Part shown: one piece after another, positions 4,363 through 24,992 of the stretch
How the letters are laid out: each line of letters begins with the position of its first letter
How positions within the stretch are numbered: position 1 is the stretch's first letter
Source: Heterodera schachtii
Taxonomy: Eukaryota > Nematoda > Chromadorea > Rhabditida > Heteroderidae
Direction: 5' to 3'
NCBI GenBank assembly: GCA_023374025.1
Contig: SIJG01000018.1
Location: 186,001 to 250,000 of the forward strand
Length of the DNA: 64,000 nucleotides
Position numbers and translations under genes: made by a program
The notes under the pieces: generated by a model
Databases searched by the model: none
Told to the model about the DNA's origin: nothing
The model's input: only the letters and a program-made list of their open reading frames with translations

Positions 4363-5780
4363 TGTTTAAAGCCCCAATTCTCGGCGAGTGACTCAAAAGT
4401 CGCACTCAAAAATTGTGTGCCGCAGTCTGTTATCACAATTTTTGGTAGCCCAAATAGACATAGAAATTTTTCTACGGATGCTGAAGTAACAGTTGTCGCT
4501 GTTTGTTCCCTCAGTGGGATAGCGGCCATAAATTTGGAAAATGAGTCAATAATCATTAAAACGTATTGGAATCCTCCCTTAGACATTCTTAGGGGTCCCA
4601 TTAAGTCGAGATGAAGTCTTTCAAATGGGCGAGCTGCCGGTTCTATTGGACAAATTGGTTCCGCGCTTTTATTAATGCCAATAATTTTCCTCCTTTGGCA
4701 TGCGTCGCAGTTTTTGACCTGCTTTTGAATATCTTTGTCCATTCCTTCCCAAAATAAACTTCGTCTAATTTTTTCTTTCGTTCGTTTCTCGCCCAAATGG
4801 CCTCCTTGGAAAGGGTCAGAATGATATTCACTCATTACCCGGCGTCGCATACACTCTGGGACATAAATTTTCCACTCTCCCCTGTCTGTAACGCACAAAA
4901 GTCCCTCAAAAAGCTTCCATCTTCCGAATGTCCCCTCAGAATTACCTTTTTCGTCCGCATTTTTTATTAATTCGCAAATTCTCTGCGATTCTTTGTCCTG
5001 TTTTTGTGCTGCGATCATTTCTTCTCGTGTTATTTTCTGGTCGAATTTTAATGAATTAATTTATTGATCCGTTTTGTCGTCCAAATATCGAGATAAATAG
5101 TCACAGAATTGGTTTCGTTTTCCCGGTCTTTGAATAATATCTACATCGAATGCCATAATTGCCAGCTGGTATCTGCTTAACCGTCCTTCTAAATCCTTCC
5201 TTCGGAATAGTGATGTTAATGCTGAATTATCTGTTACCACCGTTGACCTTCCAGCTCCCTCCAAATATGGGCGGAAATTTTTTAATGAAGCGCAAATGGC
5301 AAGTGCTTCTAATTCCACTACTGAATATCGTTTTTCATGTTTAGTTAGAACTCTGCTAAAGTAGCAAATGGGGTGGATTTCCTCCTTTTTGTTCTTCTGT
5401 AGAAGACATCCGGCGATTGCTTTGGTGCTGGCATCTGTTTCAACTACAAATGGGTGTCCAAATCTTGGTGGGGCTAACACTGGCGCTGTCATCAATCTTT
5501 CCTTTAACTCTTGCAACGCTTGCTCGTGCAATTCTCCCCATTCCGTTGTACTTTCATTCTTTGTTAGTTCATAAATGGGTTGCAGTATTTCAGCGAATCC
5601 GAAAATGAATTTTCGAAAGTATGATAAGACACCGATCAACGATCGTAGCTCAGTTATATTGTTTGGTTTTTTGATTTTTTGGATCGGTTCCAAATCCTTT
5701 GGATCAATTCGCACACCCTTTTCCGAAATTAAATGTCCCAAATATCGTATTTCTCCGAGTGCAAATCGGCACTTTTCTGG
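4360..5780 (-). pseudogene. Gypsy pol, distal half: end of RT, RNase H, integrase
   Basis: The frame starts with the RT thumb/connection region (YLGHLISEKGV), then RNase H with TDASTKAIAGCLLQ, the VVELEALAI block and VVTDNSAL. A TAA at 5061-5063 interrupts the frame just before integrase. The integrase part keeps the zinc module (His-His, then CDACQRR) and the first two catalytic aspartates (HLDLMGP and TDCGTQF). It then ends after HQTTVPY, before the third catalytic residue, where the CCGG-rich repeat takes over. No function is possible without the C-terminal half of the core. Confidence 0.85.
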
Positions 5781-5784
5781 CTTT

Positions 5785-6605
5785 TGTCCGATCACCACCC
5801 GTTGATTGATTGATTGGTTGAGTGCGCTTGAGTTGAGCTGCTTGAGTTGGCCGAGTGCGCTTGAGTTGAGTGCGGTGCAGGTCGCCGCGGTGGTGTCGAC
5901 AAGGCCCGAGGAGTTCGGGCGTTGAAATTTGCCGGGAGGGGAAGCAGGAGTGGGACGGGAATTGTGCCGGGGGTCAAACGTGGGCAAGTGCAGAGGAAAA
6001 ATTCACACCAAATTTTATCTCAAACTTGGGTAATTAAACCGAAAAGTGGACAATGGGCGGACAAATGGGGGAGGAAAATCCGGCCAAAGGCCACAAATTG
6101 AAATGTGAATGCAAAACGGCCCTATTGGCTGATCACACAAAAAATCGCAATTGAAATGGTGAAAATTGGGCCAAAATTGGAGGACATGAAGTTGGAGCAG
6201 TACAAGCAGTACAACAAGGGAATGTGAGCGAGGCAATTGGGACAGGACAAATGAGCGCATGGAAATGGGGGAGGTGCGCATGAAATGAATTGGCCAGAGA
6301 GGGCCAAAAATGGGACAAATGTGGCGGTGAACGGGGGCCAAAGAGTTGGAGCTGTTCAGCTCCCAAAAAGTGGTCGATTGGGGAAATGAAGTGCTGTTTG
6401 TGAGCACACATTTAAAGGGAACGGAAAAATGGGGAGAGAATTTTTGGGTGATAAGGAACGGAATTTGCGGGGGGGAGTGACAGCCGCTGATAAGGCGGCA
6501 ATTGCACATCGGACCATTTTTAAATTGAATTGATTTTTGGTTTTTGTCCGATGTGCATTTTGGCACAAATCAAATAATTTGATTTTCGAAACCCGTGTTT
6601 CGACA
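5785..6605 (-). repeat. 3' LTR of the BEL/Pao element
   Basis: Shares almost its whole length with 16495-17318. Outside one block (about 6225-6300) the two copies differ at only a few positions. Within that block they differ at more than ten positions in about 70 bp. The LTR includes the pair AGCAGTAC/AAGCAGTAC near 6197-6212, which recalls the stem sequences in the leader hairpins. Confidence 0.93.
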
Positions 6606-6690
6606 CTCCCGAGCGGCAAGGAAAAGGGGCTCATCCGTTCTTCCTTCTTCTCTCTTTCTTCTTCCCTCTTGGTTCTTTGTTTTGGGCCCA

Positions 6691-9600
6691 TCAGTAGTCC
6701 GCCAGTTTCATCGGTCGCAAGCGTCCGAAGGGCGTGTCCTCTGTTGCGCTGTGCGCTCTCGCTCGTGTTCGGAATGATGCCGTTCCCGTCGTCGTGTCCA
6801 GTCGGATTAGTGGAGTCGATTGCTCTGGCAATTGTCGTCGTTTCCGCCGGATCGGGGTGCTTGGCATCTCCCGCAATGGCATGTCCTCGTGTTGGGCTTG
6901 AATTTGGTGCGTCGTCTGATTCTTCGGTCGAAATCCGATCAGGGTCATGAGTGTGATGCGGATTGGGTTGAGGAAGTATGCGATTAAGCATGGTAGGATG
7001 ACGTCTCGGAAAAGTAGGAATGTGGAGTATGCCGAGGCGAGACGTATCCACCATTGAATGGCTTCCTGTAGTCGGTCTTGGAGCCATCTGACGGTCCATC
7101 CTTCGATTCCGTCGGGTAAGGCGCCGAGTGCTTCCGCTCGTTGCGTTGTTTGTTGTTCCAGCTTGTTTTTGAACTCTTCCGAATCTTCGAATTCGTCGAT
7201 GTGTGGAAGGCTGGCGAAGTCGGTATCGTTGTCGAGCTGCCACTGATGGAAGATCAGTGGGTGGAGATCCAAATCGTTGTCGGTTTTGTTGAGGATCGTC
7301 TCGTAGAGCTCATGGATGACTGTTTGTGCCAGTCGTTGGACGTTTCCATTTCTTGAGTCGATTCGCACCCACAAGTTGGGGTTTTGTTGCACTTGCAGGT
7401 GATGGTAGCGAAATGGTGAGCAACTTGCGATCTTTGAGATGAGTGAGAGGATGCGCGTCTCCGGGTCAAGGAATGCGTCTCTTGTTGCGTTTGGTAAATG
7501 GATTGTGACCGGAATGAACTTGTAGCAGTCTTTTGTTGTCCGGTAGCTGATGTTGGAGAGGGAGATTGGAACGCAGGGAAATACTTCGATTGTTGTTTCG
7601 CTGATCCATCGGGCTTGCAGATTATCGCGCTTGAGGAGTTTCCGTGCCTGAAGCGTTGGGTTGCTGACGCGCACATTGCGCTGGCATTCCTTCAAGTAGA
7701 GCTGCGAGAGTGCCATTGTTGTGGCAAGTTGAGCAGCTGAAAGCTGCGAAGCGAGTTGCTCGGGTTGCACGTTGCGTCTCGCTCTTGTGTGGTTGCTCAT
7801 GATGATGTCATATTGCTCTTTTGGAATGCCGAAGTTCTGCTCCGATAGGACGATTTGTCTCCCGTCGCATGCTTGCACTGCATGCGTCTCGGTGAAGGTC
7901 AGTGCCTTTTGTCGGTCTTCCGAGATCCAAAATGCTGTTGTTTGACCGTTGAGCGTGGTGAATTCTCCGTGGATTTCTTCTGCTTCTTGAAAGTCGCACA
8001 TGAAGCAGTTGTCGTTTGGACATGCTGAAGTCCAGATGAGTGAACTGTTGTCTTGCAGTTGGCAATACTCGGAGGCGTAATTGCAATGGTCTGCGCGATG
8101 GATTGGTGACAAGAGTTGGAGACTGTGCCATTTGACAAACAGAGTTGCTGGTTGCGCAAAGCAATTTGTTGCTGAGCTGGTTTGCTTCCATTTGAAGAGT
8201 CCGGTGATTGGTCCGGGGAAATCCACTTGGAGTTGGTCGTTTGTTGCCCAAATGTGCTTGTTGTCGTCGTGGTGCATTTCCGTTTTGGCGAGTGGGCATT
8301 CTTGCTGGTGTGCCATTCGTTGGCAGAGTCGTTTGGAGACCAACGGAAATTCTTTGTTGATTTCGACGAACTTATCGCCGACGATGTTTGTGTAGTAATT
8401 TTCCGTTGTCGTTTTGATGGAACAGTGCCATGCCGTTGCGATTGGTTCCGGCCGGTGGATCTTGGTGTACAGCGTGATGGTCAGTGGTGTCCATTGCGCG
8501 GTGAGTGCTGGTGGTGGACGGCAGAATGGCGAGTTTTCCGGGCCTTTCAGTTCCCAGAGAGTGCTGCCGTGATTCGAGCACCAGAAGACTTCGCGTCCTT
8601 CTTCGGTTGTGATTGTGCTCTTGGGCCAGCGAATCAATTTGATTCCTGGACGGGGCCTTTGTTGTTGCCGTACCCGCGATACTGTTGTCGTTCGGTGGTC
8701 CATTGACCATGGCATTGGCGTTGTCGTGGCTGTGCGTGCGGTTGGCCGTGTGGTTGATCTGGTTGGCCAATTTGTTGTGCGTGTGGTCGTTGTAGTCGCG
8801 GTTGTTGTCGTTGTGCGTGGACGATTTGTGGTTGTTGTGAGTTGTGTCGTTGTCCATGGCGGAGTTGTCGATGTCAGCGGATTTGTTGATTGGCTCAGAC
8901 TTCGGTTCAGTGCTAGAACCTTGTCTATGTATCGCTGGACGTAAGGGCTGTATTTTGTTGATGCCCGTCGGTCGCGCTCCGTGAAGATGTTGAGGAAGTT
9001 TGAAACATGGCCGCCATGCCACGCTTTGACTTGCGTAATTCGCTTTTGTCGATTTGGTAGTCCTTGTGCAGTGCCGGTGAAGAGTAGGCAAAGCATGCTG
9101 ATCAGCATTAGCGAGCTGATCACTTGTCGGCTTGTTGATGGACCTTGTCGGGACGTGTTTGTTGACGAGGATGGTCCCGGCTCTTGTTCCAAATCCATTG
9201 GTTCCGGAATGGCTTGTCGGATCCGGTTGGCGATTTGTCTTGCTTCTCCCATTTCTCGATTGAAAACGAAGAAGCCCGCCTTCAATTCTCGGGTGATGTC
9301 GATCAGGTACTTCTTGTTGTTGATCCATTGCGCATTGTCGTCCTTGGCGACGATCAATGTGATTTCGATGTCTGATCGCAGAAATCGGTGGAGCATCGGT
9401 GCGATTTGAACCGCCATGTTGTCGGCAGTTGCTTGGTAGGCGAAGATCATATGTTTGACCTTTGGTCCCGGGATGAGTCGGAATTCATCTGCTGGGAAGT
9501 GGGTAAACCACTTGGCGTCGTAGAAGAGTGGCTTAAACACTTCTGCAACGTTGTCTCCGATGAGAATGGTTGTGCAGTTGTAGTTCAAGAAGGTCGGGTG

Positions 9601-11433
9601 CTGCACTTTTGCTCGAGCTTTTGTGAGGATTTCCGCCGTTCGGTTGTTGAGTCGCTCGATCCATTCTTCGTAGTCGGTTGGTTGCTCCTTTTCTGGTATG
9701 ATTGGTCGAAACTTGACTTGTTTGTGTGCCGGTTGATTGTAGAGCTCGCCGAAGCGATCGCATGAGTTGCGCCAGACATTGATGACCTCTGTCAAGTGCT
9801 GGTCGCGTCCGATTTGTCGTCCTTTGCTGACGACTTGTTGCTGGTGGAACTTTTTGGCGATTTCTTCCGTTACGGCGTTGAGTTGCGTGTAGTTGTCGTG
9901 AGCTGCCCAAATCTCATCAGCTGGCAAGTTCATGTTCCGGGTGAGCCAATTGAAGATTAGGGCTTGGAAGAAATTGGTCGCGCGGCAGTTGTTGAACTCT
10001 TCCACTTGGAATCGGTTGCCGGCGATTGATCCGTAAGTTGCCGTTTTCGCGCAGGTCGTGTGAGAGTCGTCGCATGGCTCAAACAGATTGAATTCGTTGA
10101 AGTTGTTCGGCTTGGGGTCGGCCATTCGGTACTCTTCGATTGTTGGTGCCGATGTTTTTGGTTGCTTTGGCTGCTTTGCGTTGTCGGTGGCCGTTTTTTC
10201 TGTTGTTGGCGTGTCATCGAGCGTTATGATTTCCGGTTCTTCGGTTGGCACGGCCTGGAGGAAGATCACATCTTCTGGCACCATGTGTGAGTAGTATCCG
10301 CCGTCCACAAAGCGGAACTCGGCGAATGGTCGTTTTCCTCCATACAGTCGTGAGACGCTGAGTTGAAGGCGATCGGTTTTATGATGAATCATCCATCGCC
10401 CTTGGTCCTCCAGTTCATGGAGCTCTCGGAGAACACGTCCTCTTTGCCATGCTGACGTCCAATTCTCCGGTCCGTAAATGCGTTGAACGTAGCTGAGCAG
10501 CGTTTCGTTTTCCTCTGGCCATTCGTCCCGTGGCCGTTGTCGCTTCTCTTGCATGTCGATAGTCTTTTTTTTGCCGATTCGATGTCGTTCAAGCTCTTTG
10601 TCCTTTGCTGATTGCTGCTTTGACTTCGTTGGCTGATCCGTTTCTTCCGCGTGCTTCTCTGTTGGATTCGGCTGATCCATCAGATCGTAGTCAAATTGTT
10701 GTGCCAATTCTTGCCATGCCTTGCTGTGTGCTTGTTGATTGGTGGCACGTTGTTCGTCGTTTTGTTGCCTTTCGATTTGTTGACGTTCGGCTTCTCGTTG
10801 CTGTTCTTCCCGTTGTGGCTGCGGCATTTCTCGTTCGTGTTGCTCAGTGCGTAGGTGTCGTTTAGCTTCTTTTTGCGCTTTCTGCACCATTTGTTGTTCG
10901 TGTTCGATTTGCTCATGTTGCGGCGCTTTTCGTACTTCTCTGTTTTCTGCGATAGCCTGAATCGTGGCCTTGCTGCTTCCTTGTTGTTCCGCGATTGCAT
11001 GGAACAATTTTAGCAATCCGGAGTCGTGAAGTTGCTTGCGGCGTTTGTGTTGTCCTTGCAGTGGACTTTGTTGTTGTCCGATGGGTCGTAACAGTGCTGA
11101 ACGGCGTTTTGGGATTTTGAAGTCTTCGGGGTTGCGTGGTCGTTGCTCTTCGTCGTCACTGCCGGCTAAGGAGACTGAGTCTTCCATGATTGATGCGATG
11201 AGGCAGTGGACTTGTTGAATTGGTTGCTTTTGGCGCCGGGTTGCCACAATTTTGATTGGATGTGTCGGATTTGCCTTGTACGTTGGGTCGTCTGTGTCGT
11301 AACCGATGATCGACAAGTTGATTGGGCGCAGCACTTTAATCGGTTCTTGATCCGATTCGAAAGTGAGTGGACGATTGTTGATGATTGATACGATTGCACA
11401 GAGTATTGTGCCGAATTCGTCGAATGTGAGCAT
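6691..11433 (-). CDS. BEL/Pao second ORF: integrase tail, coiled-coil and unknown domain, envelope-like glycoprotein
   Basis: 1580 codons. The first about 60 residues match the C-terminal tail of BEL integrases (LTFDEFGTILCAIVSIINNR, then PLTF). A Gln/Glu/Arg-rich coiled coil and an unknown alternating strand/helix domain (around ILIGDNVAEVF, near 9570) come next. Then come a hydrophobic signal-like segment (near 9085-9130), a Thr-rich mucin-like stretch (near 8700-8850), many N-glycosylation sites and cysteines, a furin-like RARR (near 7775), and a C-terminal membrane segment (near 6950-7030) with a basic tail. This is the layout of a class of viral surface glycoproteins. Which viral family it came from I cannot tell from the residues alone. 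The frame itself is unbroken. Confidence 0.72.
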   Translation of the reverse strand: MLTFDEFGTILCAIVSIINNRPLTFESDQEPIKVLRPINLSIIGYDTDDPTYKANPTHPIKIVATRRQKQPIQQVHCLIASIMEDSVSLAGSDDEEQRPRNPEDFKIPKRRSALLRPIGQQQSPLQGQHKRRKQLHDSGLLKLFHAIAEQQGSSKATIQAIAENREVRKAPQHEQIEHEQQMVQKAQKEAKRHLRTEQHEREMPQPQREEQQREAERQQIERQQNDEQRATNQQAHSKAWQELAQQFDYDLMDQPNPTEKHAEETDQPTKSKQQSAKDKELERHRIGKKKTIDMQEKRQRPRDEWPEENETLLSYVQRIYGPENWTSAWQRGRVLRELHELEDQGRWMIHHKTDRLQLSVSRLYGGKRPFAEFRFVDGGYYSHMVPEDVIFLQAVPTEEPEIITLDDTPTTEKTATDNAKQPKQPKTSAPTIEEYRMADPKPNNFNEFNLFEPCDDSHTTCAKTATYGSIAGNRFQVEEFNNCRATNFFQALIFNWLTRNMNLPADEIWAAHDNYTQLNAVTEEIAKKFHQQQVVSKGRQIGRDQHLTEVINVWRNSCDRFGELYNQPAHKQVKFRPIIPEKEQPTDYEEWIERLNNRTAEILTKARAKVQHPTFLNYNCTTILIGDNVAEVFKPLFYDAKWFTHFPADEFRLIPGPKVKHMIFAYQATADNMAVQIAPMLHRFLRSDIEITLIVAKDDNAQWINNKKYLIDITRELKAGFFVFNREMGEARQIANRIRQAIPEPMDLEQEPGPSSSTNTSRQGPSTSRQVISSLMLISMLCLLFTGTAQGLPNRQKRITQVKAWHGGHVSNFLNIFTERDRRASTKYSPYVQRYIDKVLALNRSLSQSTNPLTSTTPPWTTTQLTTTTNRPRTTTTTATTTTTRTTNWPTRSTTRPTARTATTTPMPWSMDHRTTTVSRVRQQQRPRPGIKLIRWPKSTITTEEGREVFWCSNHGSTLWELKGPENSPFCRPPPALTAQWTPLTITLYTKIHRPEPIATAWHCSIKTTTENYYTNIVGDKFVEINKEFPLVSKRLCQRMAHQQECPLAKTEMHHDDNKHIWATNDQLQVDFPGPITGLFKWKQTSSATNCFAQPATLFVKWHSLQLLSPIHRADHCNYASEYCQLQDNSSLIWTSACPNDNCFMCDFQEAEEIHGEFTTLNGQTTAFWISEDRQKALTFTETHAVQACDGRQIVLSEQNFGIPKEQYDIIMSNHTRARRNVQPEQLASQLSAAQLATTMALSQLYLKECQRNVRVSNPTLQARKLLKRDNLQARWISETTIEVFPCVPISLSNISYRTTKDCYKFIPVTIHLPNATRDAFLDPETRILSLISKIASCSPFRYHHLQVQQNPNLWVRIDSRNGNVQRLAQTVIHELYETILNKTDNDLDLHPLIFHQWQLDNDTDFASLPHIDEFEDSEEFKNKLEQQTTQRAEALGALPDGIEGWTVRWLQDRLQEAIQWWIRLASAYSTFLLFRDVILPCLIAYFLNPIRITLMTLIGFRPKNQTTHQIQAQHEDMPLREMPSTPIRRKRRQLPEQSTPLIRLDTTTGTASFRTRARAHSATEDTPFGRLRPMKLADY

Positions 11434-11493
11434 TTGGTCGTTTGAGGGTGGATGAAGCCGCTGTGCTTCTCTGAAAATCCATTTTTCTGCCAG

Positions 11494-14400
11494 TTAGAGT
11501 TGTGCCACTGTCAGTGGTTTGTTGCTTTGGTGCTCGTCGCTGATTGTGCCGTTTTTGATTGTGCGAAGCTTTTCAATGAAGTGCATGGTGTATGCTGCGG
11601 TGGCTCTCAGCCTGTTCCAATTCGAGAACCGCTGGAATTGGATTGATGGTTGAAACTGTTCTTCGATTTGAACAGGTGTTGCCATTTCGACGATTGGTGG
11701 CTCTTCCACTTCGTTGAATTCATCTCCGGGCCGGTAGATGACGTTTGATTCTGGCCATTTGTCTGCTTTCGAAAGCCAAATGGGGCCAAAGCGCCAAAGC
11801 AGTGATGATCGAAGGCATTGAGGATCCGTTCCTCTGGATGCCATGTCCGCGGGGTTTGAGTCGGTTCTGACGTGCCGGACTTGAAAGTTTGCTTCTCGTA
11901 TCTTTTGTAATCGATTTGCCACAAATCGTTCTTGGCGCTTGTTGTCTCGAAGTCGTTCGACCGAGCATTGACTGTCGGTCCACATGATTACTTGCTGATC
12001 GGCGAATTTGATTTGAGCTTGGACGAATTTGACTGCTTTGACTCCGAGAGTCAGTGCTTGAAGTTCCAGCTTTGGAATCGTGCCGTCGTGCGCGGCCACT
12101 TTGATTGGTTTGACGAGGCTCTTTGCGTAGATGAGATTGCATTCATCCTTTCTGATCGTCGTTTTTGCCTTTTGGTACACGGCAATTCCCATGCCGTATT
12201 TGCTGGCGTCGCAGAAGCAGTGGAACTCCACTGAGTCGATGGCTTGGATGTGCCGTGGAAATTCGATTGTGACGGGTTCGCCTCTGTCCAGCCACTGTGC
12301 CATCAATTTGAGCCAGTCCTTGCAGATGTTTGCTGGCAATTCGTCGTCCCATTTTGGGTTCAAGTTTTGCACTTCTTGGAGAATGAGCTTGGCTGGCAGT
12401 AGGACGGGTGACATGAGTCCGAGCGGATCATAGACTTTGGCGATTTGCGACAGGATTGTCCGCTTTGTGATTTTGCCTTCGAAGATCGGCAACTTGAAGA
12501 TGAGCCGATTGTGCTTTGGTTTCCATCGAATGCCGAGCACTTTGTTGTCTTCGAGGTCCTTTGCCAAGTCGTCTGGTTGCAGCTTTTTCAGCTCTTCGAT
12601 GTTGCTTCCGTAGAATTCTCGGAGTTTCATGCCCGCTGCTTCGAAGATTGTTTTGGCTTGCGTCACCAAATCTTGAAGCTTTTCCGTTGGCTTGGCGTCG
12701 AACATGATGTTGTCGACGTACAGATTCTCTTCGATCCGCCTCGCGAGGTCGGAGTCGAATAGCGCGAGGTGTTCCCGTAGTGTGGCATTGAGTAGAAATG
12801 GAGACACCGTCAGGCCGAAACTGACACGGCAGAATCGGTAGATGCGCAGTTCGGAGTGGTCGATTGGATTGAGCTCAGCTGTCTCGGGGTTGTTGAGCCA
12901 AATGAATCTGCAGGCATCTCTATCCACGTATCGGATGCCAAGTTGTAGAAATGCCTTTTCGATGTCTGCCAGGATTACATGTTCCATGCGTCGGAAGCGC
13001 AGGAGGATGCCGGTGAGATCCTTCAGCAGTTGTGGTCCGGTGTGCAAGCAGTCGTTCAAGGATGGTGCTGATGGGCAATTCTTTGGTTTTGCTGACGCAT
13101 CCATGACGATTCGGATTTTGGTTGTCGCTTTATCCGCTCTGATGACTGCTCTGTGTGGCAAAAAATGCAGTGGCCATGCACTTGATGGTGACTCAGGTGG
13201 GCCGATGTATTCGATGACCGATTGTTGAACTTGCTCGTCCAAAATTGCCTGATATTCGTCAATCAGGTTGAGGCTGCGCAGCTTTTTGATCAATGAGACG
13301 AGCCTGGCCTTGGCTTGGTGTATGTTGCTTGGAAGAGCATCGACTCTGTCGTTCCAAGGCAAGGCAACTTGGTATCGGTTGTTGACGAATGTGAGGTTCT
13401 TTTTGAAGTAGACCATCACTTGATCCTGATCAGTTGGTGTTGATGTGTCGTCCATGCCGATCAGGTTTAATCCGAAGAAGTTGTTGAGCTGCTCGTCCTT
13501 CTTGACATCATCTTCGGATGTGAAGACTTCCTTATCTTCTTTGGTTGATTCGAACGTGACTGATTGATTGGCTCCTTCTTGGTCAGTGCCATGGACTGAC
13601 ATGACGAATGTCACGTTCGGCGTTTGGTGCATTTCGATGCGTCCTGATCCGCTTAGGATTTTGCCGATTTTGGAACGGCACAGTGTGAAGCCGCTTGGCA
13701 GCTTTTCGATTGGTTGAACCTGCAGTTCGTGCCAGACATCAATTCCGAGCATGATGTCTGGTTGGCGTTGCTCATGTGGAGGATTGAGCTTTTGTTGTCT
13801 CAATTCTGTCTTGTCCAGCTCTGACAGTTGAATCATTGGCATGTCGTTGACCAAGAATTTCATGGCGTTGAGGTTGAAGATGAGCTTTTCCCCGCTTGTG
13901 CAGAGAAATCCGAGCTTGACCAAATCGCTGATGTATCTCTTCGGTTCGCGTTCTCCGAAGCTGGTCAAATGGCATTCTTCGGTGTGGACCACCGGGAGGT
14001 CCATTAGCTCTGCAGCTTTTTCCGAAATGAATGACCTGTGGCTCCCTGGATCAACGAAAATTGCCGCAATCATGCTGAGATGCGGTCGTGCTGGATTGAA
14101 GACCGTTGACGTTGCGGTCATCAGCAGTGCGCGAGTGTCGCTTCCGTTGACGGCATTGCACATTTGCGATGCTGATGCTGATGGTTCGTTGCTTTCTGCT
14201 TGGCTTGTGCTTGGCACGTTTTGTTGTGGTTGCCCAAACATTGCTGCTGAGATTTGGTTTGGTGGCTTGCTGTCGCCATGGCACAATGCTGTTGGATGTG
14301 GTTGTTTGCATTTGAAGCATCTTTTTGGTTGCGGACAATTTCCTGCTTGGTGATTGCTTTTGAGGCATTTGAAGCATAATGCCTTTGTGCGCAGCACTTC

Positions 14401-15423
14401 TCTTCGTTGTTGAATTGTGCTGAATTTCCGGCATTCTTCGTTCCAGTGGTCGTTACCACAGAAAATGCACGGACTTGGAGGTTTGCGTTGATTGAATGTC
14501 GCATTGGCCTGTTGAGTTGGGAATTGCGTTCGATTGTTGAAAGTGCGCGAGTTTCTTTGTTGCGTTTGTGGTGCGCGAGGCCTTTGTTGCTGCGGCCTAT
14601 ATTGAGGCTGTCTGCCATGCAGCCTTTTGTGATTGTCATCCACCGCTGAGGTGATGAATGTGCGTTCCCTTTGCTGCGGGATTGGTGCGCGGTCTCGGAA
14701 TTTTGATGCCGAGAAATTTGGCTTTTGCGGTTGCGGCCGTTGTTGCTGCGAGTGTCCGTACTCGCCCATGACTTCTTGAATTTGTGTTTCTTTGCGCACC
14801 GCTTCGTTGAGTACGTCTCGGAACTTCGTGGTGTTCCAGTGTGCCGGATTTTCTCCCTTTTTGGTGAGGATTGTGCGCAGAAATCCGGGAGTGAGCTTCT
14901 TTTCAAGCATGAGGAAGGTTGGCGGGCCTTCAATGTCTTCTCCTGAGTTGTTGAGTTCGCGTGTGAGCCTTTCGAGTTGCAGGAGGAATTCTTTGGTGTC
15001 GCGCAGGTTTTTGCAGGGCTTGAGGTTTGCCAATTCGAAATGAAGTGCCCTGATGTGTTCGTCCGGTGCGCCGTATGTGTCCTTCAGTAATTGGAGGGCC
15101 GTGTCGTAATTGTTGTCCTCCAGCCGAAATCCGGCCACGAGTTCACGGGCCTCTCCTCCGAGCAGGTTGCGCAGGAGATTGAACTTCTTCGCTTTGCTGA
15201 GCGCATGTGTGCCGATTGCCGATTTAAACGATTCGTAGAACTCCGGCCATTTGCGTTTGTTGCCGAAGAACTTGTCCAGCTGAATGGGCTGGAATTGGTA
15301 GAACGGAGGAGTGAAGGACGGCGTCTTTGTTGTTTGTTGCTGCGTGGTGTGTTGTGTTGCTTGTGCATGGGCTATTTGAGTGTCCCGCTCTTCTTTGTCC
15401 GCCTTGCTGCGGAAGAGTCGGGC
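11494..15423 (-). CDS. BEL/Pao Gag-Pol polyprotein (nucleocapsid, protease, RT, RNase H)
   Basis: The frame is open from 15423; the first ATG is at 15138. Order: DUF1759-type capsid domain; three zinc knuckles ([40 protein letters not shown], near 14460-14285); an A17-type aspartic protease region with [10 protein letters not shown], where most relatives have DSG; BEL-type RT with [12 protein letters not shown] and YVDN (12711-12722) in place of YVDD; RNase H with [17 protein letters not shown] and WTDSQC. The frame ends in TAA at 11494-11496, just after RNase H. It continues in the same phase into an integrase C-terminal fragment 60 bp on, so zinc-binding and catalytic integrase domains are gone. 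Confidence 0.9.
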
Positions 15424-15789
15424 TTAAAACGTGAGTGTGCCGATTAAGTCGCGTAAGTCGCGCAGCTTGAGTGCTGCTTCGTCGACTTTGTCGTTGATTC
15501 GCTCCTTCTTTTCGAATTTGTTGAAGTCTGCTTCTGCCGGATCGCGTTCCAGTGCAGGCAGCTTGCGGAGTAAATCTGCCCATGCAGTGAGTGCTTCGCG
15601 CACGTCGTCGAGGAAGATGTCCATCGTTTTGGCATCTTTTTGAACTTTCTCCAATTGAATTTCGAAGTTGAGGGCATTTTCGAGATTTGATGCCGTTTGG
15701 TCGGCTTGGATGTTCAGCTCCGCCGCAGTTCGGCTGCGGGAGAGAACTTTGAGTGCAGCGCCGAGTTTTTGTTGAATTGGTGCGGCCAT
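15424..15789 (-). CDS. BEL/Pao Gag N-terminal part, ended by in-frame TAA
   Basis: 121 codons, starting at the first ATG after the hairpin leader, mostly helical and charged, with coiled-coil-like heptads (residues about 25-75). The TAA at 15424-15426 is in the same frame as the downstream Gag-Pol. The 285 bp between this stop and the next ATG at 15138 are open and encode the start of a DUF1759-type Gag domain ([11 protein letters not shown]). So the stop splits one long ORF. It may be a nonsense mutation or a leaky stop; nothing next to it marks readthrough. Confidence 0.75.
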   Translation of the reverse strand: MAAPIQQKLGAALKVLSRSRTAAELNIQADQTASNLENALNFEIQLEKVQKDAKTMDIFLDDVREALTAWADLLRKLPALERDPAEADFNKFEKKERINDKVDEAALKLRDLRDLIGTLTF

Positions 15790-15942
15790 TGATTGTTGGT
15801 TTGCTGTTGCTGTACTGCTTGATCAGCTCGGGTGCGGCTGCTGTTTGTTTGTCGTTGCTTGCTGCTTTTGTTTTGCCGCTTGTGTGCTTGTCGTTAGCCG
15901 CTTTGCTTTGTTGATTTGCCGCACTTGCTGCACTTGCGTGGT

Positions 15943-16380
15943 TGTACTGCTGACACGGAGGTCAAGCAGTACACCTTGGGGTTCCCGCCGTTTGACTTGT
16001 TTGTTTGAGTTGTTTGTGCAACTGCTGCCACGAAGAGCTAGCAGTTCACACCGACTTCCCCTTGGTGAGGATTGGGTACTGTCACTACGGAGAGCGAGCA
16101 GTACTTGAATTACTGATGGCACAAAGACCGATCAGTAATTTTACCGTTTACTTATGGCACAAAGACCAGTAAGTAATTTGACCGATTACTTATGGCACAA
16201 AGACCAATAAGTAATTTGAAAGTGAAATACTAATGGCACGAAGACCAAAGTAGTAAGTCACTGTTTCCCCCGTGAAACTACTGCTGGCACGGAGACCAAG
16301 CAGTATTCCACAATTTCCCACTTTTGCTCCCCCCTTTTTGATGTATTCAAGTTTGGCTACGGAGAGCTCAAACTTGATAC
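15943..16380 (-). repeat. array of nine stem-loops with conserved 13-nt loop in BEL/Pao leader
   Basis: Between the primer site and the first Gag ATG, nine short inverted repeats follow each other at 15943-15973, 16020-16046, 16076-16104, 16108-16140, 16148-16176, 16185-16215, 16228-16255, 16279-16305 and 16343-16380. Stems are 5-12 bp (for example AATTACTGAT with ATCAGTAATT, and CAAGTTTG with CAAACTTG). Their sequences differ from one unit to the next, yet each pairs with itself. The unpaired centre is 13 nt in nearly all and conserved: GGCACAAAGACCA on the plus strand, with variants such as GGCACGGAGACCA and GCTACGGAGAGCT. The sense RNA carries the complement. Changing stems around a constant loop argues for selected RNA (or DNA) structure. 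Confidence 0.85.
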
Positions 16381-16474
16381 TTTTTGGAATTTTTTTTCTC
16401 AAAAAATTCCCCACCAGTTGCAGTTCCACTACTGCTTGAAGTCGTTCAGTTGCTGGTGCTGTCGAGGGAGTCGG

Positions 16475-16492
16475 TCCCTGCCCAGGTCGCCA
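16475..16492 (-). other. primer binding site (putative)
   Basis: Two bases inside the 5' LTR the sense strand reads TGGCGACCTGGGCAGGGA. Starting with TGG, the complement of a tRNA CCA end, right after an LTR is the position and form of a tRNA primer site. Which tRNA ends ...CAGGTCGCCA in this species cannot be told from the window. Confidence 0.65.
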
Positions 16493-16494
16493 CT

Positions 16495-17318
16495 TGTCCG
16501 ATCACCACCCGTTGATTGATTGATTGGTTGAGTGCGCTTGAGTTGAGCTGCTTGAGTTGGCCGAGTGCGCTTGAGTTGAGTGCGGTGCAGGTCGCCGCGG
16601 TGGTGTCGACAAGGCCCGAGGAGTTCGGGCGTTGAAATTTGCCGGGAGGGGAAGCAGAAGTGGGACGGGAAACTTGTGCCGGGGGTCAAACGGGGGCAAG
16701 TGCAGAGGAAAAATTCACACCAAATTTTATCTCAAACTTGGGTAATTAAACCGAAAAGTGGACAATGGGCGGACAAATGGGGGAGGAAAATCCGGCCAAA
16801 GGCCACAAATTGAAATGTGAATGCAAAACGGCCCTATTGGCTGATCACACAAAAAATCGCAATTGAAATGGTGAAAATTGGGCCAAAATTGGAGGACATG
16901 AAGTTGGAGCAGTACAAGCAGTACAACAAGGGAATGTGAGCGAGGGCAAGTGGGACCGGAGAACTGAGCGCAGGGAGATGGGGGAGGCGCGCAGGAAACG
17001 GATGGGGCAGAGAGGGCCAAAAATGGGACAAATTGTGGCGGTGAACGGGGCCAAAGAGTTGGAGCTGTTCAGCTCCCAAAAAGTGGTCGATTGGGGAAAT
17101 GAAGTGCTGTTTGTGAGCACACATTTAAAGGGAACGGAAAAATGGGGAGAGAATTTTTGGGTGATAAGGAACAGAATTTGCGGGGGGGAGTGACAGCCGC
17201 TGATAAGGCGGCAATTGCACATCGGACCATTTTTAAATTGAATTGATTTTTGGTTTTTGTCCGATGTGCATTTTGGCACAAATCAAATAATTTGATTTTC
17301 GAAACCCGTGTTTCGACA
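16495..17318 (-). repeat. 5' LTR of the BEL/Pao element
   Basis: Near-identical partner of 5785-6605, ending at the second CTTT copy (17319-17322). Transcription would start here and run leftwards. Core promoter elements were not identified. Confidence 0.93.
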
Positions 17319-17322
17319 CTTT

Positions 17323-18419
17323 AATCGAAAGCCAACCTCGGCCATCGTTTTCAGAAATGTTTCAATGTCTTTTAAGTGTTCGTCCTCTGTCATTGAACCA
17401 ATAATACAATCATCCAAATATACAAGGAAAGTAGCCGAGCACAATTGGCGTACTTCTTCCATGGCTTGTTGGAATGTTGTTGGTGCGCCTGCCAACCCAA
17501 ATGGACTTCGAAGCCACTCGAATAATCCCATATGACAAATAAAAGCACTTCTTTCTTCGTGTCCTTTTGCCAATTTGATGTGAAAAAAGCCGCTAGAGCA
17601 ATCTGCCACGGAAAAATATTTTTTTCCCGACACTTCGTCAAGGATCGATTGGATTCTTGGCAAATAATAAGTCGAACGCTTCGTTAGCTGATTAAGTTTT
17701 CTGTAATCAACACAGAATCGGTACGACCCATCGGGCTTTCGAACGAGAACAATCGGAGAAGACCAAGCCGACGAAGAAGGCCGAATAACGTTTTGTCGGA
17801 GTAATTCTTTTACCTGTCTTTCTATTTCTGGTTGTAATGCTACCGGATATCTATACGGTCTTTGCTGAACTGGCCGCGCTCCGTCAATTAAGTCGATGCG
17901 ATGAATTGTCTTGCCTTTAAAGAGTCCCACTTCGCCTGGCTTAATGAAGGCTTCTTCGTTGTCCTTAATAATCCCCTTCAGTTTTTGCATTGAGTTAGGA
18001 CTGAATATGGCCTCATTTAAGGAAATACGTTCTAAAATAGGCTTAATTTTGTCATCCTTTTTTGGAAATGCCAAGGTTTCGTCGGTCCAGTCCGCCTCTG
18101 GCGGAATTTGGTCTCTTTCTGATTTAAATTTTCCCCATTCTTCGTCATTCATTAGCATGTTTGGATCGTCAGGATTTTGATCCCTTCGTAAAGAATTTAT
18201 TTCTGCTGAGTCGGAAATAGGCTCAATAAATGCCAGTCGCGAGCCGGCGTGGACTTTCACAACACAATTACCGAAATTAAGTAATCGAAGCGGAATAACT
18301 CTGGTAGACCCGGGACAAATTAAGCACTTTCCGACACGAATAGGAAAATAGCCGTGCTCTTTTTCGACAGTGATGAATGTGTCGTCGGGGTCAAAACTTC
18401 GATTTATCTGCCCCCACAC
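17323..18419 (-). pseudogene. Gypsy pol, proximal half: reverse transcriptase
   Basis: Contains the RT fingers and palm of a Ty3/Gypsy element: YRFCVDYRKLN, the AFICHMGLFEW block and the catalytic YLDD in FLVYLDDCI. The frame runs into the BEL/Pao LTR at 17318, so its last residues are LTR-encoded and foreign. It begins without an ATG in the overlap with the protease ORF, which lies in a different frame. The shift falls near a run of five Gs at about 18411-18415. Confidence 0.85.
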
Positions 18420-19105
18420 GAATGAGTCAGATAATGGGGGAGTGTCTGAGTTTGTAAGAGTCGAACTTCGGTTGGCTTATTTTCGAAGTTTATTGCGCCA
18501 ATCATTGGAAGATGAATATGGCCGACTCTAACAGTTCCCTTTTTAAAATTAAGCCCAATTTCCTCTTCTCCTCCTTGTTCACTGATGTGGTCCATCAAAT
18601 CCGTCCCGATTATCGCTGCGCATGCACATCCTTCGTCTTCGCTTACTAATATCGGAAATTTGCCTTCAAATTCACCCATTTTGATGTTTACAATTGTTGA
18701 CCCAATAAAACGGATTGCTGTCGAATTAGCTGCTCGAGCTTGCGGAAAATCCCCACGGCGGACCTTCAGAAGACACTTATTGGCAGTTGATGACTTAATG
18801 TATGTAACGTCTGCTCCGGTGTCAAATAATGCCCTCACAATTTGGCCATTCAGAAATATATTCACGTAACATCTCTTTTTCTTCAGTCCTAATCGATTTA
18901 TTTGGCAGATTTTTGGTATATAATTTAAAAGGTAGGCTTTTTGTTCGAGTAAAGCTTCTTCAGGGGGTGCCGTTGGTTTTGTTTGTTCCCGTAATTCTAC
19001 TTCCATTACCATTGGATAACGGACCTGGTCCGCAATTTCTCTGCCGGATGAAAAGCAGCTCACCAAAGTGGTGATAAGCGAGCGGATTAATTGGAGAGGC
19101 AGCAT
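18404..19105 (-). pseudogene. Gypsy protease region
   Basis: A 233-codon frame with the retropepsin active site LFDTGADVTYI, flanked by strands typical of retroviral-type aspartic proteases, and a second hallmark block (AAIIGTDLMDHI). The first 70 residues may be the end of Gag. The frame shifts at its end relative to the RT frame. In most Gypsy elements protease and RT share one frame, so this is probably a mutation rather than programmed frameshifting. Upstream Gag is missing: the satellite starts about 15 bp beyond the ATG. Confidence 0.8.
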
Positions 19106-19120: not shown

Positions 19121-22100
19121 ACTATAAAACTGTAGGAGAGAAACTAAAAAATTTTCTCTTAAAAAGCAACGCGAATTAAATGTAAATTTTCGAGTTGATT
19201 AATCAATTGGCTGATATTTTTATTTTTTAAAACAATATTTTTATTTACGCATTTTTATTCTGGAGTTAATTATTTCGCTTGTTGAAATTTGATACATCAA
19301 ATCTATCATGTCCTAGGCTAATAAACAACGGAACTGGCATTAAAATTGAGGTGGCCTCTCCACCACACTATCACTTTAACAAATTTTTTACCAATTTGAG
19401 GGCAAATGCAAATGAGCTTGCAGCAGGTCGTGAAAAGTCTGTGCAATTAATTTTATAGCAATTAAATAAATCTCAATGGACTTAATGGTGACAAATGCAC
19501 TATAAAACTGTAGGAGAGAAACTAAAAAATTTTCTCTTAAAAAGCAACGCGAATTAAATGTAAATTTTCGAGTTGATTAATTAATTGGCTGATATTTTTA
19601 TTTTTTAAAACAATATTTTTATTTACGCATTTTTATTCTGGAGTTAATTATTTCGCTTGTTGAAATTTGATACATCAAATCTATCATGTCCTAGGCTAAT
19701 AAACCACGGAACTGGCATTAAAATTGAGGAGGCCTCTCCACCACACTATCACTTTAACAAATTTTTTACCAATTTGAGGGCAAATGCAAATGAGCTTGCA
19801 GAAGGTCGTGAAAAGTCTGTGCAATTAATTTTATAGCAATTAAATAAATCTCAATGGACTTAATGGTGACAAATGCACTATAAATCTGTAGGAGAGAAAA
19901 TAAAAAATTTTCTCTTAAAAAGCAACGCGAATTAAATGTAAATTTTCGAGTTGATTAATCAATTGGCTGATATTTTTATTTTTTAAAACAATATTTTTAT
20001 TTACGCATTTTTATTCTGGAGTTAATTATTTCGCTTGTTGAAATTTGATACATCAAATCTATCATGTCCTAGGCTAATAAACCACGGAACTGGCATTAAA
20101 ATTGAGGTGGCCTCTCCACCACACTATCACTTTAACAAATTTTTTACCAATTTGAGGGCAAATGCAAATGAGCTTGCAGAAGGTCGTGAAAAGTCTGTGC
20201 AATTAATTTTATAGCAATTAAATAAATCTCAATGGACTTAATGGTGACAAATGCACTATAAATCTGTAGGAGAGAAACTAAAAAATTTTCTCTTAAAAAG
20301 CAACGCGAATTAAATGTAAATTTTCGAGTTGATTAATCAATTGGCTGATATTTTTATTTTTTAAAACAATATTTTTATTTACGCATTTTTATTCTGGAGT
20401 TAATTATTTCGCTTGTTGAAATTTGATACATCAAATCTATCATGTCCTAGGCTAATAAAACACGGAACTGGCATTAAAATTGAGGAGGCCTCTCCACCAC
20501 ACTATCACTTTAACAAATTTTTTACCAATTTGAGGGCAAATGCAAATGAGCTTGCAGAAGGTCGTGAAAAGTCTGTGCAATTAATTTTATAGCAATTAAA
20601 TAAATCTCAATGGACTTAATGGTGACAAATGCACTATAAATCTGTAGGAGAGAAAATAAAAAATTTTCTCTTAAAAAGCAACGCGAATTAAATGTAAATT
20701 TTCGAGTTGATTAATCAATTGGCTGATATTTTTATTTTTTAAAACAATATTTTTATTTACGCATTTTTATTCTGGAGTTAATTATTTCGCTTGTTGAAAT
20801 TTGATACATCAAATCTATCATGTCCTAGGCTAATAAACCACGGAACTGGCATTAAAATTGAGGTGGCCTCTCCACCACACTATCACTTTAACAAATTTTT
20901 TACCAATTTGAGGGCAAATGCAAATGAGCTTGCAGAAGGTCGTGAAAAGTCTGTGCAATTAATTTTATAGCAATTAAATAAATCTCAATGGACTTAATGG
21001 TGACAAATGCACTATAAATCTGTAGGAGAGAAACTAAAAAATTTTCTCTTAAAAAGCAACGCGAATTAAATGTAAATTTTCGAGTTGATTAATCAATTGG
21101 CTGATATTTTTATTTTTTAAAACAAGATTTTTATTTACGCATTTTTATTCTGGAGTTAATTATTTTGCTTGTTGAAATTTGATACATCAAATCTATCATG
21201 TCCTAGGCTAATAAACCACGGAACTGGCATTAAAATTGAGGTGGCCTCTCCACCACACTATCACTTTAACAAATTTTTTACCAATTTGAGGGCAAATGCA
21301 AATGAGCTTGCAGCAGGTCGTGAAAAGTCTGTGCAATTAATTTTATAGTAATTAAATAAATCTCAATGGACTTAATGGTGACAAATGCACTATAAAACTG
21401 TAGGAGAGAAACTAAAAAATTTTCTCTTAAAAAGCAACGCGAATTAAATGTAAATTTTCGAGTTGATTAATCAATTGGCTGATATTTTTATTTTTTAAAA
21501 CAATATTTTTATTTACGCATTTTTATTCTGGAGTTAATTATTTCGCTTGTTGAAATTTGATACATCAAATCTATCATGTCCTAGGCTAATAAACCACGGA
21601 ACTGGCATTAAAATTGAGGTGGCCTCTCCACCACACTATCACTTTAACAAATTTTTTACCAATTTGAGGGCAAATGCAAATGAGCTTGCAGCAGGTCGTG
21701 AAAAGTCTGTGCAATTAATTTTATAGCAATTAAATAAATCTCAATGGACTTAATGGTGACAAATGCACTATAAAACTGTAGGAGAGAAACTAAAAAATTT
21801 TCTCTTAAAAAGCAACGCGAATTAAATGTAAATTTTCGAGTTGATTAATCAATTGGCTGATATTTTTATTTTTTAAAACAATATTTTTATTTACGCATTT
21901 TTATTCTGGAGTTAATTATTTTGCTTGTTGAAATTTGATACATCAAATCTATCATGTCCTAGGCTAATAAACAACGGAACTGGCATTAAAATTGAGGTGG
22001 CCTCTCCACCACACTATCACTTTAACAAATTTTTTACCAATTTGAGGGCAAATGCAAATGAGCTTGCAGCAGGTCGTGAAAAGTCTGTGCAATTAATTTT

Positions 22101-24992
22101 ATAGCAATTAAATAAATCTCAATGGACTTAATGGTGACAAATGCACTATAAAACTGTAGGAGAGAAACTAAAAAATTTTCTCTTAAAAAGCAACGCGAAT
22201 TAAATGTAAATTTTCGAGTTGATTAATCAATTGGCTGATATTTTTATTTTTTAAAACAATATTTTTATTTACGCATTTTTATTCTGGAGTTAATTATTTT
22301 GCTTGTTGAAATTTGATACATCAAATCTATCATGTCCTAGGCTAATAAACCACGGAACTGGCATTAAAATTGAGGTGGCCTCTCCACCACACTATCACTT
22401 TAACAAATTTTTTACCAATTTGAGGGCAAATGCAAATGAGCTTGCAGCAGGTCGTGAAAAGTCTGTGCAATTAATTTTATAGCAATTAAATAAATCTCAA
22501 TGGACTTAATGGTGACAAATGCACTATAAAACTGTAGGAGAGAAACTAAAAAATTTTCTCTTAAAAAGCAACGCGAATTAAATGTAAATTTTCGAGTTGA
22601 TTAATCAATTGGCTGATATTTTTATTTTTTAAAACAATATTTTTATTTACGCATTTTTATTCTGGAGTTAATTATTTCGCTTGTTGAAATTTGATACATC
22701 AAATCTATCATGTCCTAGGCTAATAAACAACGGAACTGGCATTAAAATTGAGGTGGCCTCTCCACCACACTATCACTTTAACAAATTTTTTACCAATTTG
22801 AGGGCAAATGCAAATGAGCTTGCAGCAGGTCGTGAAAAGTCTGTGCAATTAATTTTATAGCAATTAAATAAATCTCAATGGACTTAATGGTGACAAATGC
22901 ACTATAAAACTGTAGGAGAGAAACTAAAAAATTTTCTCTTAAAAAGCAACGCGAATTAAATGTAAATTTTCGAGTTGATTAATCAATTGGCTGATATTTT
23001 TATTTTTTAAAACAATATTTTTATTTACGCATTTTTATTCTGGAGTTAATTATTTTGCTTGTTGAAATTTGATACATCAAATCTATCATGTCCTAGGCTA
23101 ATAAACCACGGAACTGGCATTAAAATTGAGGTGGCCTCTCCACCACACTATCACTTTAACAAATTTTTTACCAATTTGAGGGCAAATGCAAATGAGCTTG
23201 CAGCAGGTCGTGAAAAGTCTGTGCAATTAATTTTATAGCAATTAAATAAATCTCAATGGACTTAATGGTGACAAATGCACTATAAAACTGTAGGAGAGAA
23301 ACTAAAAAATTTTCTCTTAAAAAGCAACGCGAATTAAATGTAAATTTTCGAGTTGATTAATCAATTGGCTGATATTTTTATTTTTTAAAACAATATTTTT
23401 ATTTACGCATTTTTATTCTGGAGTTAATTATTTTGCTTGTTGAAATTTGATACATCAAATCTATCATGTCCTAGGCTAATAAACCACGGAACTGGCATTA
23501 AAATTGAGGTGGCCTCTCCACCACACTATCACTTTAACAAATTTTTTACCAATTTGAGGGCAAATGCAAATGAGCTTGCAGCAGGTCGTGAAAAGTCTGT
23601 GCAATTAATTTTATAGCAATTAAATAAATCTCAATGGACTTAATGGTGACAAATGCACTATAAAACTGTAGGAGAGAAACTAAAAAATTTTCTCTTAAAA
23701 AGCAACGCGAATTAAATGTAAATTTTCGAGTTGATTAATCAATTGGCTGATATTTTTATTTTTTAAAACAATATTTTTATTTACGCATTTTTATTCTGGA
23801 GTTAATTATTTTGCTTGTTGAAATTTGATACATCAAATCTATCATGTCCTAGGCTAATAAACCACGGAACTGGCATTAAAATTGAGGTGGCCTCTCCACC
23901 ACACTATCACTTTAACAAATTTTTTACCAATTTGAGGGCAAATGCAAATGAGCTTGCAGCAGGTCGTGAAAAGTCTGTGCAATTAATTTTATAGCAATTA
24001 AATAAATCTCAATGGACTTAATGGTGACAAATGCACTATAAAACTGTAGGAGAGAAACTAAAAAATTTTCTCTTAAAAAGCAACGCGAATTAAATGTAAA
24101 TTTTCGAGTTGATTAATCAATTGGCTGATATTTTTATTTTTTAAAACAATATTTTTATTTACGCATTTTTATTCTGGAGTTAATTATTTCGCTTGTTGAA
24201 ATTTGATACATCAAATCTATCATGTCCTAGGCTAATAAACCACGGAACTGGCATTAAAATTGAGGTGGCCTCTCCACCACACTATCACTTTAACAAATTT
24301 TTTACCAATTTGAGGGCAAATGCAAATGAGCTTGCAGCAGGTCGTGAAAAGTCTGTGCAATTAATTTTATAGTAATTAAATAAATCTCAATGGACTTAAT
24401 GGTGACAAATGCACTATAAAACTGTAGGAGAGAAACTAAAAAATTTTCTCTTAAAAAGCAACGCGAATTAAATGTAAATTTTCGAGTTGATTAATCAATT
24501 GGCTGATATTTTTATTTTTTAAAACAATATTTTTATTTACGCATTTTTATTCTGGAGTTAATTATTTCGCTTGTTGAAATTTGATACATCAAATCTATCA
24601 TGTCCTAGGCTAATAAACCACGGAACTGGCATTAAAATTGAGGTGGCCTCTCCACCACACTATCACTTTAACAAATTTTTTACCAATTTGAGGGCAAATG
24701 CAAATGAGCTTGCAGCAGGTCGTGAAAAGTCTGTGCAATTAATTTTATAGCAATTAAATAAATCTCAATGGACTTAATGGTGACAAATGCACTATAAAAC
24801 TGTAGGAGAGAAACTAAAAAATTTTCTCTTAAAAAGCAACGCGAATTAAATGTAAATTTTCGAGTTGATTAATCAATTGGCTGATATTTTTATTTTTTAA
24901 AACAATATTTTTATTTACGCATTTTTATTCTGGAGTTAATTATTTTGCTTGTTGAAATTTGATACATCAAATCTATCATGTCCTAGGCTAAT
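19121..24992. repeat. 378-bp tandem satellite, about 15.5 copies
   Basis: Monomers start at 19121, 19499, 19877, 20255 and so on every 378 bp to 24791, giving 15 full copies and a 202-bp partial. Copies are about 97-99 % alike by eye. Variant sites group the array: copies from 19877 to 21010 share AAATCTGTAGG and GCAGAAGG, and alternate in two further positions (AAAATAA with GAGGTGG, AAACTAA with GAGGAGG). That suggests past duplication of a 756-bp dimer. Each monomer has an inverted repeat AGAGAAA...TTTCTCT and a GGTGG/CCACC pair. There is no coding potential. Confidence 0.97.

Follow-up and report, generated by a model that had tools for sequence, protein, structure and literature searches.

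The leader of a BEL/Pao element in the window (the whole 64-kb stretch of DNA that was analysed) contains an array of nine hairpins on the minus strand, which is the sense strand of the element, at 15945-16375 between the primer site and gag. Each unit has a lower stem of 7 bp and an upper stem of 3 bp with a bulge between them on the 5' side, and is capped by the hexaloop CUYYGU; the return strands have no bulge, and the sequence of the lower stem is largely free across the units. Nine inverted repeats between the primer site and the Gag start had been reported in a preliminary description of this DNA, and that observation is confirmed, while the interpretation offered with it is, as a whole, partly supported. 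A covariance model of the unit (R1), built partly from these same nine units and searched with default filters, gives nine matches in the window. Every one of them lies on the minus strand within the range given above, and none falls in gag, pol or LTR.

The window's minus strand carries a BEL/Pao LTR element, as had been proposed. It has the parts of the known BEL/Pao elements (Belpaoviridae): paired LTRs in direct orientation, a primer-like site, a gag segment matching DUF1759 and a pol segment matching Peptidase_A17, both above the cut-off (Table 1). The weak envelope-type match in the 3' ORF suggests that the element is env-bearing. Three CCHC-type knuckles are found in gag, within 11001-15800. 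The primer-like site was read from the sequence (TGGCGACC..., just inside the LTR); BEL/Pao primer sites are complementary to a tRNA of the host, that for Arg or that for Gly (PMC8742986). The gag copy, which begins with an ATG at 15789-15787 (minus strand), has an in-frame stop codon about 120 codons further on; because of this stop the window copy is probably not active, which leaves the argument on the hairpins untouched. Gypsy-type domains flank the element on the same strand (4191-5987 and 17283-19105, minus), with integrase and RNase H on one flank and RT and aspartic protease on the other, and a gypsy-type element seems to enclose the BEL/Pao one. The window also holds a satellite array at 19121-24992 (378-bp unit, 15.5 copies, about 99% alike).

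Table 1. Features of the BEL/Pao element and its leader hairpins in the window. Hairpins are written on the minus strand as lower stem - bulge - upper stem - loop - upper stem - lower stem.
Feature	Position	Strand	Composition	Remarks
5' LTR	16494..17320	-		97.6% identity to 5784-6607
3' LTR	5784..6607	-		pair with 16494-17320, direct orientation
Primer-binding-site-like sequence	16473..16492	-	TGGCGACCTGGGCAGGGACC	just inside 5' LTR
Leader, primer site to gag ATG	15790..16492	-	703 nt	upstream ATG 0; shuffles expect 6.5
Hairpin 1	16349..16375	-	AAGTTTG - A - GCT - CTCCGT - AGC - CAAACTT	R1 33.9 bits
Hairpin 2	16279..16305	-	TACTGCT - T - GGT - CTCCGT - GCC - AGCAGTA	R1 45.2 bits
Hairpin 3	16228..16255	-	TACTACT - TT - GGT - CTTCGT - GCC - ATTAGTA	2-nt bulge, one lower-stem C.T mismatch; R1 25.9 bits at 16228-16252
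Hairpin 4	16187..16213	-	TACTTAT - T - GGT - CTTTGT - GCC - ATAAGTA	R1 39.1 bits
Hairpin 5	16149..16175	-	TACTTAC - T - GGT - CTTTGT - GCC - ATAAGTA	one C.A mismatch; R1 35 bits
Hairpin 6	16111..16137	-	TACTGAT - C - GGT - CTTTGT - GCC - ATCAGTA	R1 41.8 bits
Hairpin 7	16077..16103	-	TACTGCT - C - GCT - CTCCGT - AGT - GACAGTA	one lower-stem C.A mismatch; R1 33.6 bits
Hairpin 8	16020..16046	-	AACTGCT - A - GCT - CTTCGT - GGC - AGCAGTT	R1 41.3 bits
Hairpin 9	15945..15971	-	TACTGCT - T - GAC - CTCCGT - GTC - AGCAGTA	R1 41.4 bits
gag segment, DUF1759 match	13939..15138	-		27.9 bits, above cut-off
pol segment, Peptidase_A17 (Pao) match	11497..12738	-		145.4 bits, above cut-off
3' ORF segment, Monjiviricetes_fusion match	6694..8277	-		weak, envelope-type; 30.9 bits, cut-off 27

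The array lies outside the LTR, and over 100 nt separate its beginning from the primer site upstream. The hairpins had been read on the plus strand with a nearly constant 13-nt loop, and both readings have to be revised. Among the 320 pairs of 32 distinct units there are 38 G.U against 2 C.A on the sense strand; since the other strand would swap the two, the structure is assigned to the minus strand. Read on that strand, the 13 nt resolve into a bulge (T, C or A; one nucleotide, or two in one unit), an upper stem that itself covaries (GGU/GCC, GAC/GUC, GCU/GGC, GCU/AGC, GAU/GUC) and the hexaloop. The stems vary and 317 of the 320 cells are paired (99.1%); hairpins 3, 5 and 7 of the window have one mismatch each. 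The motif CTYYGT occurs nine times in the leader, where 0.65 would be expected from shuffles, and the hairpins are formed in the predicted fold of the leader. A loop-agnostic detector, which looks for hairpins sharing a 5-7-nt loop (one mismatch allowed) on different stems and compares them with 50 dinucleotide shuffles, singles out the minus-strand array tile as the only one of 98 window tiles (49 places on both strands) that has at least three same-loop hairpins in a number reached by none of the 50 shuffles. Against Rfam, no match of the leader reaches the gathering score or an E below 0.1; three weak matches, the best at E 0.12, are all on the plus strand. Taken together, the RNA structure of the hairpins is well supported by sequence comparison.

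Selection on both pairing and loop, which the preliminary description had proposed, is strongly supported, for the loop at the level of its pattern, by 12 aligned leaders that include the window's own and by 32 distinct units. Units were selected for a paired upper stem, six of the seven lower pairs and a CTYYGT loop; of the 34 distinct ones, two have a 2-nt bulge and were left out of the alignment, and the remaining 32 are of 27 nt each. Because the units were chosen for pairing, the percentage of paired cells is biased upward, and the double-sided changes and the comparison of leaders L001 and L009 are less so. Two-sided changes are seen at 7 of the 10 pairs. The double-sided changed cells number 56, against 13.3 in shuffles, and none of 500 shuffles is as high. 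When the partner is slid by one to three columns, pairing falls to between 12 and 69% (maximum 68.8%).

The leaders L001 and L009, of two diverged subfamilies, differ at 62 of 199 spacer positions (31%), as compared to 20 of 120 in the lower stems, 4 of 54 in the upper stems (7%), 8 of 54 in the loops and 6 of 10 in the bulges. All eight loop differences are between C and U, at positions 3 and 4 (CTTTGT, CTTCGT to CTCCGT), and the conserved thing is the pattern C-U-Y-Y-G-U and not each letter. Of their 90 stem pairs, 68 are the same and 6 are gapped. Pairing is kept in 6 pairs with changes on both sides and in 7 with a change on one side only, while it was gained in 2 pairs and lost in 1; changes that compensate appear here as they do in the shuffle comparison. 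Among near-identical copies, loop conservation beyond that of the spacers is not seen: L001 and L006 differ at 4 of 48 loop and 5 of 196 spacer positions, L001 and L004 at 1 of 48 and 1 of 197.

We turn to the copies of this array elsewhere. The genome searched is the one that holds the window (178.5 Mb, 356 contigs), and all the evidence is confined to it because a scan of viral contigs with a pol alignment gave no relatives. It is very probably that of a nematode, with 45 matches to the nematode spliced-leader RNA SL1 (best E 3.1e-7, all under the cut-off of the family) where 14 control genomes have none. The leader matches 13 places, eight of family F1 (85-100% identity, the window's own copy included), four of F2 (72-73%) and one partial match of F3 (L013). 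The array is present in all 13: F1 copies have 8 to 10 units, F2 copies 8 or 9, and L013 has six, the sixth with the loop CTCGGT, which is the sole departure from C-U-Y-Y-G-U seen. The scan for units in these leaders required the loop [CT][CT][CT][CT][AG]T and would miss others. A first unit of the AAGTT type is retained in 12 of the 13. The leaders L006 and L007 (F1; C46:837393 and 834322) match with equal score, 3.1 kb apart on one strand, and are perhaps a tandem or rearranged copy. Genome-wide, the core GGTCTYYGTGCC has 114 matches, against 13 for the reversed pattern. Among the 100 matches listed, 83 fall into 21 groups and 17 are single; for 19 of these 21 groups a match to DUF1759 follows downstream at a distance of up to about 1.1 kb. 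By place and spacing, 8 of the 21 are of F1, 3 of F2 and 10 of F3 type. Applied to 43 loci, R1 reached E < 0.01 in four only (L018, L021, L026, L029), all F3-type. To read this as absence of arrays elsewhere proved wrong, as the loop-agnostic detector found arrays with other loops.

The detector was run on 48 leader regions upstream of DUF1759 in the genome's BEL/Pao families, a number that does not include L056 and L057 because they nearly duplicate L055. At least three same-loop hairpins, with 0 of 50 shuffles as high, are found in 16 of the 48, a number that includes the CTYYGT leaders L001, L009 and L013, put in knowingly, and several near-copies of one family; the other 32 show no array by this detector. 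None of 127 control regions is positive (98 window tiles on both strands and 30 gag stretches make 128, less the array tile itself), and two come near the threshold with 1 of 50 shuffles as high. Besides CTYYGT, the loops with statistical support are CTYYGA (L075), TTCMAG (L074), TTTNGT (L076, L077), TCTCAT (L064, L065, L066, L069), TGAAAA (L078, with four units listed, among them one hairpin of another kind), CTTTGY (L067, with hairpins upstream of its primer-like site and so outside the leader) and AACAA on CCC/GGG stems (L082, in the region upstream of DUF1759). The L082 leader, in the other BEL/Pao group, is a GC-rich tandem region with two hairpin kinds (CGGCCATCAGCAGCCG and CTTACCC-AACAA-GGGGTAGG). 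L075 has six units with a loop ending in A (CUCCGA in five, CUUUGA in one), and the detector picks up five of them, each with CUCCGA. The last loop letter is U in the units found in F1-F3, which the scan demanded and the detector and R1 did not.

In the TCTCAT and TTTNGT families, too, the stems vary with pairing kept. The units, chosen for near-complete pairing, show 10 G.U against 2 C.A in the former (23 distinct units) and 2 against 0 in the latter (6 distinct units). Strand is called from wobble pairs alone, because the antisense hairpin counts are as high as the sense counts or nearly so in several families (6 and 6 in L064, 6 and 5 in L076). Two of the 16 regions that pass the shuffle test, L063 and L073, are A-rich with mixed loops and are not taken as arrays. 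L060 is likewise set aside as a statistical array: it has three hairpins with 5 of 50 shuffles as high, and in a stricter 20-shuffle version five against a maximum of three, with seven on the antisense strand. Arrays were recognised by eye only, in a non-blind inspection, in L079, L087 and L060, and the same inspection found none in L088, L052 and L080. The L058 leader, with loop CTGAGA, is marginal (2 of 50 shuffles as high); CTGAGA is repeated there more than a dozen times, flanked by the arms GTYG and CRAC, and where one side of the stem shows C/T changes the opposite side shows A/G changes. This may be a simple tandem repeat.

An upstream ATG is lacking in all nine leaders measured (L001, L013, L074-L076, L078, L079, L087, L060), for each of which shuffles expect 2.5 to 10.9. 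Primer sites and start codons were picked by eye and the zero count comes partly from choosing the first suitable ATG, so the unusual feature is the ATG-free stretch of 397 to 822 nt. In L074-L077 the reading frame continues to DUF1759. At least one CCHC knuckle is present in 24 of 25 other gag loci (none in L059, one in L047, two in L062) in a scan that left out L074, L075, L076 and L078.

A tree of 32 pol segments, for which the query was the Peptidase_A17 segment and not the RT motif proper, places detector arrays in 10 of the 13 rows of one group and in 1 of the 19 rows of the rest; the other three of the 13 have arrays by eye, a weaker criterion. The array label needs five changes on this tree, a number that only 1 of 500 shuffles matches or undercuts when near-copies are kept in the set. 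Within a six-row clade (99/96) we find CTYYGT in F1/F2 and F3, CTYYGA in L075, TTCMAG in L074 and TTTNGT in L076, with L075 as the sister of F3 (97/95) and L074 together with F1/F2 (94/86). These four loop types require at least three changes, each common to the units found in a leader. The loop type does not go with the primer-site type: F1 and F3 have the same loop and different primer-like sites, and for F3 and L075 it is the reverse.

The hexaloops have a geometry in common. Positions 1 and 5 can pair in all eight types (C-G, U-A or U.G) and any other pair of positions in at most six; the eight types are partly dependent, as three begin CUYYG or CUUUG. CTGAGA comes from the marginal array, and the list omits the families with 4- or 5-nt loops (L060, L079, L087, L082). 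The TGAAAA loop is equally readable as a GNRA tetraloop. We regard it as a lead that the CUYYGU loop is probably closed by a cross-loop C1-G5 pair, giving a pseudotriloop.

What might such an array do? The reading that we prefer, and hold with about as much belief as doubt, is a nine-fold presentation of one recognition loop to the element's own Gag, for packaging, for assembly and perhaps for a slower translation of Gag, with a loop specific to each family. The repetition of a single loop on free stems suggests a multimeric partner, which would read the loop, the distance to the bulge and the upper stem. An element-encoded partner is favoured because, within one host, the loops of a leader change together from family to family, and Gag, which the preliminary description had named, is the obvious candidate because it is a structural protein with zinc knuckles and because retroviral packaging signals are commonly 5'; here, too, a structured leader lies between primer site and gag. 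Gag would bind through its zinc-knuckle nucleocapsid, and several molecules would dock side by side on the leader, marking the full-length RNA for packaging and nucleating the assembly of the particle. Since the leader before gag is free of ATG, ribosomes probably scan through the array; the binding of Gag may also slow its own translation and could switch the RNA from translation to packaging, a switch that is made by the coat-protein operators of RNA phages. Related families would do likewise, each loop tracking the Gag of its own family.

Against Gag as the ligand, CCHC knuckles are found in families without an array as well as in those with one, and arrays are not needed for packaging in general because 32 of the 48 leader regions are without one by the detector. 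The same loop throughout the units of a family could also come partly from the re-amplification of one unit, and a host protein family with several members could be the source of family-specific loops. An extension of the Gag reading, offered tentatively and with rather more doubt than belief, is that the BEL/Pao families in one genome each have a multivalent leader tag of hairpins whose pseudotriloop letters switch together in all its units, as a family-specific packaging code that would co-evolve with Gag and keep competing RNAs apart. With a single loop pattern presented 6 to 10 times per leader and different loop sets in sister families, the arrays are a ready-made experiment on Gag-RNA specificity, and they would offer a handle for leader annotation in other nematodes. 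The replication of BEL/Pao elements is called poorly understood in the ICTV profile (PMC8742986).

Several other readings have to be weighed against binding by Gag. The array may bind a host RNA-binding protein that the element exploits, be it for localisation in the germline, for export, for stability or for the control of translation; protein-binding RNA elements typically have a fixed loop while their stems vary, and the leaders have no ATG before gag and are probably scanned. One host protein, however, would hold the loop constant across families, and the families in this genome, some of them close by pol, differ in their loops while each leader is internally uniform. There is also no sign of wide use in host genes, since most of the listed GGTCTYYGTGCC matches group upstream of DUF1759, and we consider this reading unlikely. 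Dimerisation or contact with the primer tRNA, in which the loops would pair with another RNA, fits the L001-L009 loop changes in that a change between C and U would keep the pairing to purines. This is improbable all the same, as the loops are not self-complementary, the loop type does not track the primer-site type, and the complement ACRRAG is found once in the leader against 1.4 expected and is absent from the LTR, counts for which loop pairing with leader or LTR was rejected; a host RNA may still be the pairing partner. That the hairpins control gag translation by themselves, slowing the scanning with no specific ligand, agrees with their formation in the predicted fold and with the lack of upstream ATG, but it leaves the fixed loop and bulge unexplained and appears to us quite improbable.

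An element of transcription or elongation that works as HIV TAR does, by bringing an activator to the nascent RNA, would account for the apical geometry, which is possibly the same: a bulge on the 5' side, a short upper stem and a hexaloop whose positions 1 and 5 pair. TAR occurs as one hairpin, right where the transcript begins in R, whereas this array has many copies placed downstream of both LTR and primer site, and there is little to be said for such a role. The leader of Drosophila gypsy holds an insulator of repeated sites bound by a zinc-finger protein, and the leader location and repeated sites here would suit a similar array at the level of DNA. DNA-binding sites would conserve letters and not pairing, however, and here the stem letters vary with pairing kept (of 84 pairs compared between L001 and L009, 13 have changed and kept their pairing and 1 has lost it) and the wobble bias points to one strand, which makes a DNA-level array most improbable. 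Finally, the array could be a decayed tandem repeat without function. Three units (16109-16219) still keep a 38-nt period, unit number varies between F1 copies, and among close copies the loops change at least as fast as the spacers. The compensatory changes in the stems, the constraint on upper stem and loop above that of the spacers between subfamilies, and the retained first unit speak against it; of the signs of decay that the preliminary description had named, independent mutation of the arms is contradicted and unconserved loops are seen in close copies only. This reading is refuted in the main by the L001-L009 comparison and can hardly be right.

The iron-responsive element, with a CAGUGN loop and a C bulge 5 bp below it, is likewise a bulged hairpin of pseudotriloop type, but here the loop is CUYYGU, the bulge is T, C or A and lies 3 bp below the loop, and no Rfam match was obtained. 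In the hexaloop of HIV-1 TAR, according to the available part of PMC6189040, C30 and G34 form a pair, with A35 flipped outward, and the BEL/Pao hairpin resembles it in its 5' bulge, short upper stem and pairable positions 1 and 5. Unlike both TAR and the iron-responsive element, the array has other loop letters, a 3-bp upper stem, many copies and a different place.

As to novelty, we find no described counterpart of the array in the open-access literature, judged mostly from titles and the starts of abstracts, and this agrees with the preliminary description, which knew of none. The text of the ICTV BEL/Pao profile has no leader hairpin array (PMC8742986), the available parts of PMC3118150, PMC9094657 and PMC554778 hold nothing relevant on hairpin, stem-loop or leader, and those of PMC12992720 have no RNA leader hairpins.

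The closest likeness is to packaging signals. The stem-loops SL1-SL4 of HIV-1 have loops unlike one another, whereas the BEL/Pao leaders show nearly one loop in 6 to 10 units, with free stems and a loop set that differs by family. These four stem-loops make up HIV-1 Psi, and retroviral packaging signals are commonly located at the 5' end of the genomic RNA with several stem-loops that are read by Gag, as the available part of PMC8876502 has it; the array shares with Psi the several stem-loops near the 5' end, and the reading by Gag that is seen for Psi is proposed here. In the packaging-signal-mediated assembly of MS2, STNV and HBV, as described in the available part of PMC6281560, multiple sequence-structure motifs share one recognition motif. 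The BEL/Pao array also repeats one recognition motif; unlike those signals, which are spread over the genome, the window array is packed in a 430-nt stretch of the leader, with no R1 match elsewhere in the window. If the Gag reading is true, the array would be a natural retroelement counterpart of multiple-packaging-signal assembly.
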